DNA of 62,077 nucleotides from Candidatus Hydrogenedentota bacterium (GTDB lineage: Bacteria > Hydrogenedentota > Hydrogenedentia > Hydrogenedentales > JAEUWI01): contig JAEUWI010000048.1 in the NCBI GenBank assembly GCA_016791475.1, forward strand, positions 1 through 62,077, read 5' to 3'. The notes beneath the pieces were generated by a model, which searched no databases, was not told the origin of the DNA, and saw nothing but the letters and a program-made list of their open reading frames with translations. Numbering within the stretch: position 1 is the first letter of the stretch; each line of letters opens with the position of its first letter. Made by a program: the position numbers and the translations under genes. Shown one piece after another: positions 26,648-34,961 of this stretch.

Positions 26648-26732
26648 ACCCGCCAACGGGCCTTGCCGGGATACCGGAAAGGCGCTATTATTATAATTGT
26701 ACGTGGGAAAACAACACGCAAGGAGTTCCGCC

Positions 26733-27173
26733 ATGCCCGCTACTTCCAAGATGAACACGTATACGACGGTCGATGTTGAGACGGCGTCTCAGGGAAAATT
26801 GGTCGTCATGCTGTTCAACGGCGCCATCAAGCGCGCGGAAGAAGCGAAACGTCAGTTGGAAAAGAAGAAATTCGAGAGCGTCCACAACAACCTCATTCGT
26901 TCGCAGGAGATTGTGGCCGAGTTGCGCGGTTCTCTGGACATGCGCCACGGCGAAGTCGCCAGAAACCTGGACCGACTCTATGAATACTTCCAGCACCTGC
27001 TGATCACGGCCAACGTGAAGAAGACCGAGGCGCCCATCATAGAGTGCATCGATCTGATGACGGACATGCGGGACACCTGGCAGGAGGCCTTTCGCAAGGC
27101 GGCGGAGGAACGTCCCCCGGAGGCTCCCCGAATCAACCAGCATGGCGCGGCGGTTCTCAACCTCCAAGGCTGA
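26733..27173 (+). CDS. fliS: Flagellar secretion chaperone FliS
   Basis: A 146-residue helical chaperone that binds the flagellin C-terminus and blocks early polymerisation. Family features include NTYTTVDVETASQGKLVVML near the start, FNGAIKRAEEAKRQLEKK, and a later RNLDRLYEYFQHLLITAN. AAGGAG lies seven bases before the ATG at 26733. It is the last gene of the sigma-28-driven unit, followed by a strong terminator. Confidence 0.92.
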   Translation: MPATSKMNTYTTVDVETASQGKLVVMLFNGAIKRAEEAKRQLEKKKFESVHNNLIRSQEIVAELRGSLDMRHGEVARNLDRLYEYFQHLLITANVKKTEAPIIECIDLMTDMRDTWQEAFRKAAEERPPEAPRINQHGAAVLNLQG

Positions 27174-29913: not shown

Positions 29914-32322
29914 GTGCAACTGAATGTTTCACCGGAGATTGGCGACGTACTGGAGAAGGCCGCTGCCATCAGCGCCAACCAGGGGACGTACTTCGTCGGC
30001 GTCAGCCAGGTGCTGACCGCGCTTCTGGAATCTGCGGGCCAACTCCCGGAAGGCGTCCGCGAACGCTATTTGAGTGACCTCTTTTCCGTTCAGCGCGAAG
30101 TAAACAGAATGGCGTGGACGGGCAATGCGAGCACGCCTTCGGGCGAAACCTTCTACACGCCCCGCTGTATCCAGCTCATTTCCCAGGCGTCGAAGCTGGC
30201 TACGCGCATCGGGCATGGAAAGCCATTGGCGGGCCACCTGCTTCTGGCGCTGCTACGCGATGATCTCTCCGCACCCGCCCGCGCCATGGACCGGCTTGGC
30301 CTGGATCGCGCCGGCTGCAACCAGCAGCTTCAGGCGGAGCTGGGCTTCGTGTCCCCCCAGGCCTACCACAAGGTCACGCCCCTGCCGGACTATTCCGATG
30401 TACAGTTGCAGAATATTCCCGCAGCCAAGGGTGCCCGTGCGGCAAGCGCCGCGGTGGGGGCCTCACCGTCCGCACCCGCGGCGCGCGACGAGATAGTGCC
30501 CCTGCCCAACCAGTCGGGACCCCTGACCCGCGATCTCACCGAGGCGGCCCACCGTGGCGCCTTGCAGGAGGCCACGGGGCGCGACGATGAAATGTTCGAG
30601 ATACTTCAAATCCTCTCCCGCAAGACGAAGAACAACGTGATGCTGGTGGGCGAGGCGGGCGTTGGGAAGACCCAGATCGTCGAGGGGCTGGCGCTCCGGA
30701 TCGCAAAGGAAGGGAAGAATGGCGGTATACCGCCCTTCCGCATCCTCGAATTGAACATCGCGGCCCTGATGACGGGCACCCAGTATCGGGGGGCCTTCGA
30801 AGAAAAAGTGCTCGCGCTGATTGAGCAAGTGAAGCGCTCCGAGCACGCCGTGCTCTTTATCGACGAGGTTCACCTTATTATGGGGGCGGGCGCCACCGAC
30901 GGCGACGGCATGGACCTGGCCAATCTCTTGAAGCCGGAATTGTCCCGGGGCGAGTTCCGATGCATCGGCGCCACCACCCTCCAGGAGTACCGCAAGTTTG
31001 TCGAGAAGGATCCGGCGGTGGAGCGGCGTTTCCAGATGGTGCGCGTGGACGAACTCTCGGCCGAGGCGTCGTATGAAGTGCTCAAGCGCGTGCGGCCAAC
31101 GCTGGAAAAGCACCACGGCGTCCACATTCACCGGCGCACCCTGAAGGCGGCCATCGACCTGACCGTGCGCTACATGCCCAACCGCAACCTGCCCGACAAG
31201 GCCATCGATGTGCTGGATCAGGCGTGTGCGCGCCATCGGCTGCGCAGTCTCATGATGCGTAAGAAAGACCTGCGGGAATCGGACAATCCCGATACCGACG
31301 GAGAGCGCAGCGTGACGCCCCATTCCATCCGCAAAGTGGTCAGCCAGATTACCGCGATTCCGCTGGAGCAGCTCACGGCCGATGAGCGGATGTATCTTAA
31401 CAACCTCGATCAGGTCCTCAAAAAACAATTGATTGGCCAGGACGAGGCGGTCAACCGGGCGGTTTCCGCCGTGAAAAAATCCCGCACGGGCCTCTCCGAT
31501 CCGAACCGTCCCGATTCCATCATGCTTTTTCTCGGCCCGACGGGCGTGGGGAAGACCCAGTTGGCCAAATTGCTCGCACAGCATCTTTTCGGCTCGTCCA
31601 GCCACCTCATCGTCTTTGACATGTCCGAATACAGCGAGGAGCATTCGATAGCCAAATTAGTCGGCGCCCCACCAGGCTATGTGGGGCATGAAGAGGAGGG
31701 GGTGCTGACCGGCGCGGTGAAAAATGCGCCCTTCTCCATTTTGCTCTTTGACGAAATCGAAAAGGCTCATCCCCGAATCTTCGATCTGTTTCTGCCCATG
31801 TTCGACGAAGGGCGCTTGCGCGATTCGCGCGGGCGCGAGGTGAGCTTCAAGAACTGCATCATCATCATCACCTCCAACATCGGCTCCGAGCTGCTGCTCC
31901 AGGCCGAAGTGGCGGTCGCACAGGAGGCGCTGATACAGGCCCTCCGCGATCACTTCCGCCCCGAGTTTGTGAATCGCCTCGATCAGGTGGTGCCCTTCTA
32001 CCCCCTTCTTTCCGAGGATGTGCGCAATATCTTGCGCCTGGAGGTCAATGCGATCCGGAACCGGCTTCAGGAGAAGCAGATCGGCATCCGCATGTACCAG
32101 CGAGCCTACGAGTACATTGCCCGCGAAGGATACAGCCGCGAGTATGGCGCGCGGGAGCTTCGCCGCGCCGTGGATCGCTTCGTGACCACGCCCATCAGCG
32201 ACGGGTTGGTCGACGGCCGCTTCGAAAGCGGCGATATGATCGATATCCTGATCGAGGGCGATGACACCCTGATCTACCGCAAGGGCAAGCCGGCCCACAG
32301 CATGCCGAGGATCGTACCATGA
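29914..32322 (+). CDS. ClpB/ClpV-like double AAA+ ATPase without a ClpP-docking loop
   Basis: An 802-residue Hsp100-type protein. A Clp-N-like domain occupies residues 1-145. The first AAA+ module has GEAGVGKT near residue 246, VLFIDEVH and the box VII-like region. The second has GPTGVGKT near 541, [10 protein letters not shown], the substrate-pore [13 protein letters not shown] and SNIG. A C-terminal small domain closes the protein ([17 protein letters not shown]). The long ClpB middle domain is missing. After SNIG the sequence runs straight into [17 protein letters not shown] with no IGF/LGF loop, so it should not dock on ClpP; disaggregation or ClpV-like remodelling is more likely. AGGGAG precedes the GTG start by seven bases. 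The stop overlaps the FHA gene (ATGA). Confidence 0.9.
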
Positions 32323-32903
32323 GCCAGCCCGACATGCTGGAAATCATCAACGGCCCGGAAGACGGCACCGAGTTTCCCATCAACCGCGCCCCGCTGATTA
32401 TCGGCAGTGACATGAGCTGCGAAGTCAATGTCCGCCTGGATGAGGCGGTACAGCGTTACCACGCCCGGCTCACCGCCGTGGGCGATGGCTACCGTGTGCG
32501 GAAAATTCATGGCGGCAACCTCGCCGTCAACGGCAAGTCCACCGGCGTAATCCGCTCGAGGGTACTCCGCGAGGGCGGCATTCTGACGGTCGGCAACACG
32601 GAATTCCATCTCCGCTGCGCGCCCGACGGTCTGGCGCGCAGGAGCCGGGGGCTCCCCGTAGAGAACGACGTGGTGTGGTCAATCCGCGTGCTCGGGCGTA
32701 AGTTCTGGGCCGCCGCCTGGTGGGTGGGCACCTTGAGCGGGGGGACATCCCGATTCGTGCGCGGCCTGGCCGTCCTGTTCATCGTGGCCGTGGTGGCGGG
32801 ATACTTCCGCCCGGGGCTGCCGGGCGAGATCCAGTATTTTGTGCAGCGGGGTATTGCCAGCATGCTGGAGCTGTTGCGCCCCTTCCTGAACGGACCTTCA
32901 TGA
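32319..32903 (+). CDS. Membrane-anchored FHA-like protein with degenerate phosphopeptide residues
   Basis: A 194-residue protein. Residues 5-100 form an FHA-like beta-sandwich (LEIINGPEDGTEFPINRAPL, IIGSDMSCEVNV, VQRYHARLTAV, GGNLAVNGKS, TVGNTEFHL). In canonical FHA domains a GR and an SxxH contact phosphothreonine; here they read GS and QRYH, so phospho-binding may be lost or altered. One membrane helix follows (FVRGLAVLFIVAVVAGYF, about residues 145-163) with a short C-terminal tail. It is translationally coupled to the ATPase gene (ATGA overlap), so the two products probably work together at the inner membrane. Confidence 0.8.
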   Translation: MSQPDMLEIINGPEDGTEFPINRAPLIIGSDMSCEVNVRLDEAVQRYHARLTAVGDGYRVRKIHGGNLAVNGKSTGVIRSRVLREGGILTVGNTEFHLRCAPDGLARRSRGLPVENDVVWSIRVLGRKFWAAAWWVGTLSGGTSRFVRGLAVLFIVAVVAGYFRPGLPGEIQYFVQRGIASMLELLRPFLNGPS

Positions 32904-32971: not shown

Positions 32972-32990
32972 CGTGTATACTTTTTACACG
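32972..32990. promoter_or_regulatory. Palindrome over a TATACT box upstream of the sigma-54 activator gene
   Basis: Arms cgtgta (32972-32977) and tacacg (32985-32990) flank seven bases and overlap a TATACT -10-like hexamer. It lies 35 bases before the activator start. A good -35 at the right distance is not seen. It may be an operator or a small hairpin. Confidence 0.35.
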
Positions 32991-33024: not shown

Positions 33025-34104
33025 ATGACACAGATCAAGCGATTCGGCAGGTTGGTGGGGGACAGCCGTCAGATGCGACGGGTCTACACCATGATCCGCA
33101 AAGGGGCCGCCGTTGATATGCCGGTGCTCATCATCGGCGAGACCGGCTCGGGAAAAGAATTGGTGGCGCGCGAGTTGCATGATCGCAGCGAACGCAGGCG
33201 GGGTCCGTTCGTGGCGTTCAACACCGGGGCCGTTTCCAACGAACTTATCGCCAGTGAACTCTTCGGCCACAAGCAGGGAGCCTTTACTGGAGCCACGGAC
33301 GACGAACTCGGGCGTCTGCGCGAGGCCCACGGCGGCACCCTTTTTCTGGACGAGATCGGCACGATGGACACGCGCATGCAGATCGCCCTTCTCCGCGCGC
33401 TGGAAGAAAAAAAGATTCGGCCCATCGGGGCCAAGCGCGACGTGCCCACCGACTTCCGGCTGGTCGCCGCCACCAACGAGAATCTGGAGAGCGCCGTGCG
33501 CGAAGGCCGCTTCCGAGAGGACCTCTATTACCGGCTGAAGGTGCTCTGCATCAAGCTGCCCGCATTGCGGCACCGGAGCGACGATATTCCCATGCTCTGC
33601 AAGGATTTCATTCGCAGCATCAATCGTGAATACGAATTCGACATCCAGGGGATCTCCCCCGAAGCCCTGGAGTCCCTGCTGGGCTATGAATGGCCCGGCA
33701 ACCTGCGCGAACTGAAGAATGTGCTCGCACAGGCCACCGTGACGGCCTCGACGGGCATCATTCAATTGCGCCACATGCCGGGACGCGTCGCCGAAGTCTC
33801 CGATCACGATTTCGGTCCATCGCCCCACGATCTGGCGCAGCCCGCCATCGCCCTCGCTTCGGAACGGCCCGGGCCTCCACCCGGCAATGGCGACGGCGGC
33901 GCGGGACATGGCCGGGAAGCGGGCGAGAACGGCATCTTTATCCCCGCCGGCCACACCCTTGACGAAGTGCAGCGGGCCTATACCCTCCAGACCCTGGCGC
34001 GCTGCAACAACAACAAGACCCTGGCCGCCCGGCAGCTCAACGTGAGCCGCAAAGCACTCTATGACAAGCTTGTGCGCTGGGGCGCGGTCAAGACCTCTGA
34101 ATAG
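33025..34104 (+). CDS. Sigma-54-dependent transcription activator without receiver domain
   Basis: A 359-residue bacterial enhancer-binding protein. The AAA+ core begins almost at the N-terminus (FGRLVGDSRQMRRVYTMIRK), with GETGSGKE as Walker A, the sigma-54-contacting GAFTGA loop (KQGAFTGATDD), GGTLFLDEIG as Walker B, and the RFREDLYYRL sensor region. A Fis-type helix-turn-helix closes it (NKTLAARQLNVSRKALYDKL). No receiver, GAF or PAS domain is present, as in PspF-like activators that are controlled by partner proteins. Its upstream neighbours encode an FHA-like membrane protein and an Hsp100 ATPase, and a sigma-54 promoter lies 114 bases downstream of its stop. Confidence 0.92.
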   Translation: MTQIKRFGRLVGDSRQMRRVYTMIRKGAAVDMPVLIIGETGSGKELVARELHDRSERRRGPFVAFNTGAVSNELIASELFGHKQGAFTGATDDELGRLREAHGGTLFLDEIGTMDTRMQIALLRALEEKKIRPIGAKRDVPTDFRLVAATNENLESAVREGRFREDLYYRLKVLCIKLPALRHRSDDIPMLCKDFIRSINREYEFDIQGISPEALESLLGYEWPGNLRELKNVLAQATVTASTGIIQLRHMPGRVAEVSDHDFGPSPHDLAQPAIALASERPGPPPGNGDGGAGHGREAGENGIFIPAGHTLDEVQRAYTLQTLARCNNNKTLAARQLNVSRKALYDKLVRWGAVKTSE

Positions 34105-34217
34105 TGTGCGCAGGCCCCGTGCGCGAGGCGCGGGTGAGGCGCCCCGGTGATCGTATAAGGATTACACGGTCCGGCCCCGGATTGACACCCTTCTTTACGG
34201 ATCTTGCCCTGTTTTCA

Positions 34218-34233
34218 TTGGCACGCTCCTTGC
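34218..34233 (+). promoter_or_regulatory. Consensus sigma-54 promoter
   Basis: TTGGCACG, four bases, TTGC: the invariant -24 GG (34220-34221) and -12 GC (34232-34233) are exactly ten bases apart, matching the consensus at every key position. Transcription would start near 34245, giving a leader of about 47 bases before the lipoprotein start at 34292. The gene immediately upstream encodes a sigma-54 activator, the obvious candidate regulator. Confidence 0.9.
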
Positions 34234-34291
34234 CCCCTGTTCAGGAGGCGCGGCAGCAACCTGCCGCGCAGGAACCGAAGGAGTTTGAACC

Positions 34292-34858
34292 ATGAACACG
34301 TACAAAGTTTGGCCCACCCTGGCCGCACTGACCCTCCTCGCCGCGGGCGGCTGCAAGCAGGAAGCGCCACCCGCACCCGACCAGAGCGCGCCACCCGCGT
34401 CGGAAGCGCCCGTGAACACCGAGTCGGAGTTTCACCCGGCGCACCCGGTCGAATCGGGCCGTAGTTTGGAAGAAACGGGCCGTGAGTTGGGCCGGGAAGT
34501 TCGCGAGCTTGCCGAAGATGTGAAAGATGAGGCAAAGGACGCGAAAAATGAAATGAAGGATCTGATCGAGGAAGGTCGGGATTCCGCCCGGGATCAATGG
34601 AACCAAAGCGCCGAAGCGCTGGACGAGCAGCTCGAAGACCTGCGACACAGGATGGATGAACTGGGCGACGCATCCAGCGCGAAGGCCCGGGAATCCTGGG
34701 CCGGCATCGAGGCGGAGCGCGCCGAACTCGCCCGTGAGTTCGAGGAGTTGAAGGCGGCCAGCGAGGCGTCGGCGAAGGATCTGAATGCCCGGATCGAGGC
34801 CCGGGTGAAAAAACTCGGAGAAGCCATAGAAGCCTTCAAGGAAGAGTTGGGCAAGTAG
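34292..34858 (+). CDS. Coiled-coil lipoprotein under sigma-54 control
   Basis: A 188-residue lipoprotein. The signal LAALTLLAAGGC is followed by a proline/alanine-rich tether (QEAPPAPDQSAPPASEAP). Residues 60-188 are almost continuous charged amphipathic helix (EETGRELGREVRELAEDVKD, EALDEQLEDLRHRMDELG, EEAKAA-like heptads), resembling apolipoprotein- or YtxH-like coiled coils. It would sit on the periplasmic face of a membrane and could bridge or protect the envelope. AAGGAG precedes the ATG. The sigma-54 promoter immediately upstream makes it the likely output gene of this locus. Confidence 0.85.
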   Translation: MNTYKVWPTLAALTLLAAGGCKQEAPPAPDQSAPPASEAPVNTESEFHPAHPVESGRSLEETGRELGREVRELAEDVKDEAKDAKNEMKDLIEEGRDSARDQWNQSAEALDEQLEDLRHRMDELGDASSAKARESWAGIEAERAELAREFEELKAASEASAKDLNARIEARVKKLGEAIEAFKEELGK

Positions 34859-34961
34859 TCGAGTGTGTCCTCCAACGCGCCTTCGCGACACCCGCGCGCC
34901 ACGGTTGAACTGGCTGCGGGGCGCCGCGAAGGCGCGAGGCGTTCAATAACGGATTGGCCGC

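Follow-up and report, generated by a model that had tools for sequence, protein, structure and literature searches.

The window, the whole 62,077-nucleotide stretch analyzed here, is contig C48 of a Candidatus Hydrogenedentota genome (G000; 7,706,351 bases in 529 contigs, 96% complete). At positions 33025-34104 (+) it carries a gene for a sigma-54 enhancer-binding protein of 359 amino acids, assigned by matches to Pfam PF00158 (E = 8.3e-66) and PF02954 (E = 4.7e-8) and by alignment with orthologues. The Sigma54_activat (AAA+) domain begins at residue 10 with nothing before it, so the protein has no N-terminal sensory domain; it includes the GAFTGA loop and is followed by an AAA lid and a Fis-type helix-turn-helix (HTH_8, residues 311-351). 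Downstream lies a gene for a predicted lipoprotein of 188 amino acids (34292-34858, +), with a signal peptide ending in LLAAGG-C and then long amphipathic helices. Its putative lipobox, read by eye, is AGG-C, and those of its homologues are GAG-C in G003, which belongs to the same genus, and LSA-C in G006; homologues were found in 3 of 60 genomes, a count that includes G000 itself. The structural model of the lipoprotein is helical and of low confidence (mean pLDDT 60.4). Its score of 24 bits against NF052504 (cut-off 35) does not place it in the sll1863 stress family, and a stress function is proposed from the company of its gene. Where the lipoprotein gene converges with an amidohydrolase gene, an inverted repeat (34876-34936; arms of 18 nt, spacer of 25 nt) is a possible terminator, one that the scan did not list as terminator-like.

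Just upstream of the activator gene, positions 29914-32903 hold a ClpA/ClpB-like double AAA+ gene that overlaps an FHA-domain gene by four bases; the latter encodes a hydrophobic segment, and the former scores below the ClpA, ClpB and TssH cut-offs. Both were considered as partners of the activator and dropped, since they do not recur beside it in the loci read. Farther upstream, the open reading frame at 26697-27173 looks FliS-like on reading by eye, a hint that flagellar genes may be close.

Between the activator and lipoprotein genes, the sigma-54 element TTGGCACGCTCCTTGC is present at 34218-34233 (+), where the initial annotation had placed it. It has the form TTGGCACG-N4-TTGC, in full TTGGCACG-CTCC-TTGC, and its GG (34220-34221) and GC (34232-34233) are indeed separated by exactly ten bases. 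The site starts 114 bases downstream of the activator stop codon, which ends at 34104, and the lipoprotein ATG at 34292 follows 59 bases past it. The pattern TGGCACN5TTGC has its sole exact match in the window at 34218; allowing up to two mismatches gives 63 matches where 69 are expected, which leaves the exact match as the only meaningful one. A sigma-54 match at 33163, inside the activator gene, was taken as chance. The gene for sigma-54 itself, on whose presence the promoter reading depends, was found as a single Sigma54_DBD match on contig C12 (E = 7.9e-64).

A genome-wide scan for the consensus, proposed in the initial annotation as a check, proved informative in the placement of the matches and not in their abundance. 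There are 21 exact matches against 19 for the reversed pattern, so the count alone proves nothing. Twenty of the 21 lie between predicted genes; for the reversed controls the figure is 2 of 19 (Fisher p = 4e-8). A gene follows within 350 bp downstream for 14 of 21, compared with 1 of 19. The intergenic placement indicates that such sites are largely real. Genes were called with a codon-usage script of our own trained on the window genes, and simple in-house scripts, not published matrices, likewise supplied the sigma-54 scores and the gene classification. By our reading of the translations, the genes behind other matches resemble those for pilin, a flagellar rod protein, NuoA and RnfB. On contig C41 (17214-17254), two divergent exact sites stand 11 bases apart between divergent genes. 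The equality of the genome-wide total with its reversed control would fit a fortuitous match at 34218, with the lipoprotein gene transcribed from some other promoter. This is very improbable given the intergenic placement, the orientation and the spacing to the ATG, and the lipoprotein homologue of G003 likewise has a sigma-54 site upstream (TTGGTACATTCCTTGCA). With the GG/GC spacing, rpoN and an intergenic, gene-oriented position all present, the element at 34218-34233 very probably serves as a sigma-54 promoter aimed at the lipoprotein gene.

Setting the transcription start 12 bases past the GC gives a predicted 5' untranslated region (UTR) at 34245-34291 (+), which contains AAGGAG at 34278-34283. 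The lipoprotein transcript would thus begin near 34245 and is predicted to end before the convergent amidohydrolase gene. A 9-bp stem (arms 34248-34256 and 34261-34269) lies within the UTR, which folds at -20.0 kcal/mol (z -2.5 against mononucleotide shuffles). Strong hairpins occur at the predicted 5' ends of both the lipoprotein mRNA (window 34248-34269) and a DUF1328 mRNA (L070, 1443-1461), and their sequences are unrelated. A strong stem near the predicted start was seen in four of six foldable UTRs, being absent from those of the G003 CsbD gene and the G006 operon described below. A common 5' UTR hairpin was rejected as a regulatory element because it is not in all UTRs and the z-scores are modest. 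Scans for sigma-70 promoters and for terminators returned nothing useful.

The initial annotation tied regulator and target together in one locus, and this link gains support from a candidate operator common to the promoter and the activator's own upstream region. The operator is a 17-bp palindrome, YGTRTRN5YAYACR, found at five places in the 7.7 Mb genome (eight for the reversed control). One, O1 (32974-32990, TGTATACTTTTTACACG), ends 34 bp before the activator ATG and overlaps a -10-like TATACT (32976-32981) that was read by eye; the sigma-70 scan found no promoter. This region was at first read as CGTGTA-N7-TACACG; the N5 register, common to the other sites, was adopted instead. The second, O2 (34152-34168, CGTATAAGGATTACACG), is a candidate upstream activating sequence 49 bp upstream of the sigma-54 site, its centre at about -85 from the predicted start. 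A third palindrome, on contig C7 (86033), stands 38 bp before another sigma-54 site (TTGGCACGACCTATGCA), which is followed after about 55 bp by the ATG of a DUF1328 gene. The remaining two (C4:105802 and C13:37264) have no strong sigma-54 site near them.

Four of these five palindromes fit the narrower CGTRTRN5YAYACR, which was derived from three G003 and G056 sites alone. When CGTRTRN5YAYACG is allowed one mismatch, the regulon loci (143,760 bases) yield 10 matches, of which eight are at positions discussed here and two are in the contig of the G014 CsbD gene. The same search gave 0 to 4 matches per shuffle in ten first-order shuffles, and none in a set of 59 other, partly overlapping loci totalling 190,275 bases. 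A counterpart of O1 is unclear upstream of other activator genes, the best being a site with two mismatches in G056.

Palindromes of eleven further genomes were taken with their surroundings, and a pair was defined as a palindrome with a sigma-54 site 20-200 bp off, pointing away and scoring at least 13 on our own scale. Relatives of the activator were grouped by recognition helix, which is VSRK[A/T]LYD in G000, G003, G014, G056 and G067 and SRKTLHE in G024 and G026. Among genomes with the LYD helix, 5 of 16 palindromes form pairs (G000 2/5, G003 2/8, G014 1/3), the palindrome having first been spotted by eye upstream of sigma-54 sites in G000, G003 and G056, and G014 being the only unseen test. 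Eight genomes with no activator or with a different helix (G001, G002, G005, G006, G010, G024, G026 and G033) have 0 pairs among 64 palindromes (Fisher p = 1.8e-4), G024 being counted on five of its nine; at a score threshold of 11 the figure is 2 of 64. The 16 sites leave aside G056, where two of four palindromes were covered, and G067, which was not genome-scanned. In both of these genomes (two loci in G056) the activator gene is closely followed by a palindrome, and 59-128 bp farther on comes a sigma-54 site scoring 11.5 to 14. The G014 pair precedes a DUF892 gene, and six of the eight G003 palindromes are without a sigma-54 site scoring at least 13.

The difference between 5 of 16 and 0 of 64 indicates that, from genome to genome, pairs go with the recognition helix of the activator. 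This bears on the possibility that the promoter is real and driven by another sigma-54 activator, the palindrome belonging to a different regulator and the adjacent activator serving other targets. Such an arrangement has candidates to draw on, as a search of G000 with the activator gives 27 matches at E <= 0.001 and G006 has the same gene set beside a different activator. It is nevertheless unlikely, since pairs with strong sigma-54 sites track the helix and the activator gene has the palindrome no more than about 700 bp away in G000, G003, G056 (two loci) and G067.

The expectation of a single main output gene was not supported. The DUF1328 gene on C7, unlinked to the window, has the same operator and a sigma-54 site, and pairs in G003 precede three transcripts on one contig. 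One G003 palindrome sits between divergent sigma-54 sites, for the lipoprotein gene (TTGGTACATTCCTTGCA) on one side and DUF1328-Pmp3 (TTGGCACGGCGATTGCA) on the other, and a second precedes the CsbD promoter. A fourth G003 transcript, on another contig, is preceded by the operator and a weaker sigma-54 site. Lower-scoring pairs of this genome stand on C404 (12.5), before the gene of a 121-aa protein that has no Pfam match, and on C471 (11.0), before that of a 164-aa protein beside a PRC-barrel gene. PRC-barrel and EncFtn-like ferritin genes also lie near the G056 activator (L057:190-1298), and PRC-barrel genes occur near the G067 activator as well as the C471 palindrome.

In a search of 40 genomes, all 4 of the CsbD or DUF1328 genes found in genomes with the activator (G000 DUF1328, G003 CsbD, G003 DUF1328 and G014 CsbD) had a strong sigma-54 site within 350 bp, against 0 of 6 in genomes without the activator (G010, G032, and G033 and G036 twice each), with G006 set apart. 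No strict palindrome is close to the sigma-54 sites of G014 CsbD and G056 DUF1328. Pmp3 was rejected as a marker, as 8 of 10 Pmp3 loci, including the G000 gene on C29, are without a sigma-54 site scoring at least 12. In G006 (L062, C162), DUF1328, lipoprotein, Pmp3 and CsbD genes form an operon that has a sigma-54 site at its head and lacks the palindrome. That operon adjoins an upstream NtrC-type activator gene, with a partial receiver domain at the contig end, and G006 has no orthologue of the window activator. The stress genes are therefore not tied to the window activator, and G006 shows an apparent swap of activator.

Of 68 genomes of the phylum searched at E <= 1e-82, 7 contain a match to the activator, its own genome included, and all nine aligned sequences are short and have no sensory domain. 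Its domain content (Sigma54_activat with GAFTGA, HTH_8, no sensory domain) is that of type Ic enhancer-binding proteins, a group including PspF, HrpR/S and LafK that, in the available text of Francke et al. (2011; PMC3162934), combines an activator domain with a helix-turn-helix and has no signal-recognition domain. It differs from the named members in forming a group present in those 7 of 68 genomes that exceeds the cut-off of none of the 25 NCBIfam models listed; no equivalog cut-off was reached among these 25 of 29 models. The nearest solved chains are the AAA+ domains of ZraR, NtrC and FleQ, with PspF lower.

PspF of enterobacteria is under autogenous control. The window activator resembles it in having no sensory domain, in lying beside its target and in its presumed membrane-stress output. 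It is highly unlikely, though, that the protein is the phylum's PspF with pspA as its main target, even with this short architecture and with pspA in 11 of 11 genomes searched. Its score against TIGR02974 is 246.3 bits, short of the equivalog cut-off of 443.55, and pspA is equally present in genomes without the window activator. The G000 pspA gene has its own sigma-54 site with no palindrome near it, scores there reaching at most 8.9 compared with 18.5-25.6 for the sites. The candidate operator also differs from that of PspF, and the candidate targets are genes for the lipoprotein, DUF1328, Pmp3, CsbD and DUF892 and not pspA. In 10 of the 12 pspA loci read (G000:C32:36258-36905, in L142 and L015, and L135-L146), a strong sigma-54 site lies on the strand of the gene, no more than about 650 bp upstream; a gene read as PilZ-like stands between the site and pspA in G000. 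In this phylum, Psp appears to depend on sigma-54 together with a different activator.

The reading best fitting these motifs is that an autoregulated activator of PspF architecture runs, through the palindrome, a sigma-54 envelope-stress regulon separate from PspA, which is considered likely. The stand-alone activator would bind YGTRTRN5YAYACR; from O2 it would remodel sigma-54 RNA polymerase at 34218-34233 by looping, and from the C7 palindrome it would turn on DUF1328 plus a secreted protein whose gene probably shares the DUF1328 operon. Binding at O1, over the activator's own presumed promoter, would probably limit its synthesis. Without a sensory domain, control of the activator must come through its amount or a partner protein. 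A gene for a receiver-like protein of 137-151 aa, at a sigma-54 site, lies directly behind the activator gene in G056, G014 and G067 (L057:2760-3182, L059:6336-6788 and L114:5895-6305; Response_reg E = 2.8e-4, 5.5e-9 and 2e-5, two of the three below the Pfam cut-off). It could be a feedback partner in these sister lineages; no such gene lies directly behind the activator in G000.

The envelope-stress label was chosen because the E. coli genes yjbJ, ytjA and yqaE rise together when lipoprotein transport by LolCDE is inhibited, by 28- and 57-fold, 18- and 36-fold, and 8- and 17-fold in the available portion of PMC5105897. The targets belong to the same families (CsbD, DUF1328 and Pmp3, respectively), and by this analogy the activator's targets may be small envelope or osmotic stress proteins. 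These families are also among the small open reading frames under RpoS in Salmonella, according to the available portion of PMC5437024. In contrast to control by RpoS, Rcs and Cpx, the groups read here carry a sigma-54 site, and those in activator genomes mostly carry the palindrome as well. The proposed placement of lipoprotein and envelope genes under sigma-54 agrees with the general trend across phyla of sigma-54 as a controller of the bacterial exterior (PMC3162934), in whose available text the window activator, operator and gene set do not appear.

A full-text search found no work on sigma-54 or rpoN in Hydrogenedentes or Hydrogenedentota, and the literature joining Hydrogenedentes with sigma factors concerns, by its titles, microbial communities. 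Titles and abstracts combining sigma54, CsbD, Pmp3 and DUF1328 yielded no such regulon, in a search outside which most subscription journals fall. Nor was one found in the available parts of the Desulfovibrio vulgaris regulome (PMC4641369) or of a multi-phylum sigma-54 survey (PMC12316311), the latter parts having no mention of Hydrogenedent-.

For an activator from a phylum on which no sigma-54 literature was found, the analysis offers a testable regulon with operator, promoters and targets. It also indicates that adjacency alone underestimates regulon size. Widespread stress-protein families would thereby be placed under sigma-54 control. Tentatively, with the case for it falling slightly short of the case against, Hydrogenedentota may run a second sigma-54 membrane-stress response beside Psp, with the receiver-like protein as a possible partner. 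A sensorless, autoregulated activator with an operator of its own would, with the same near-balanced reservation, preside over lipoprotein, DUF1328, Pmp3, CsbD and DUF892 genes, a role that in Proteobacteria falls to RpoS, Rcs and Cpx.
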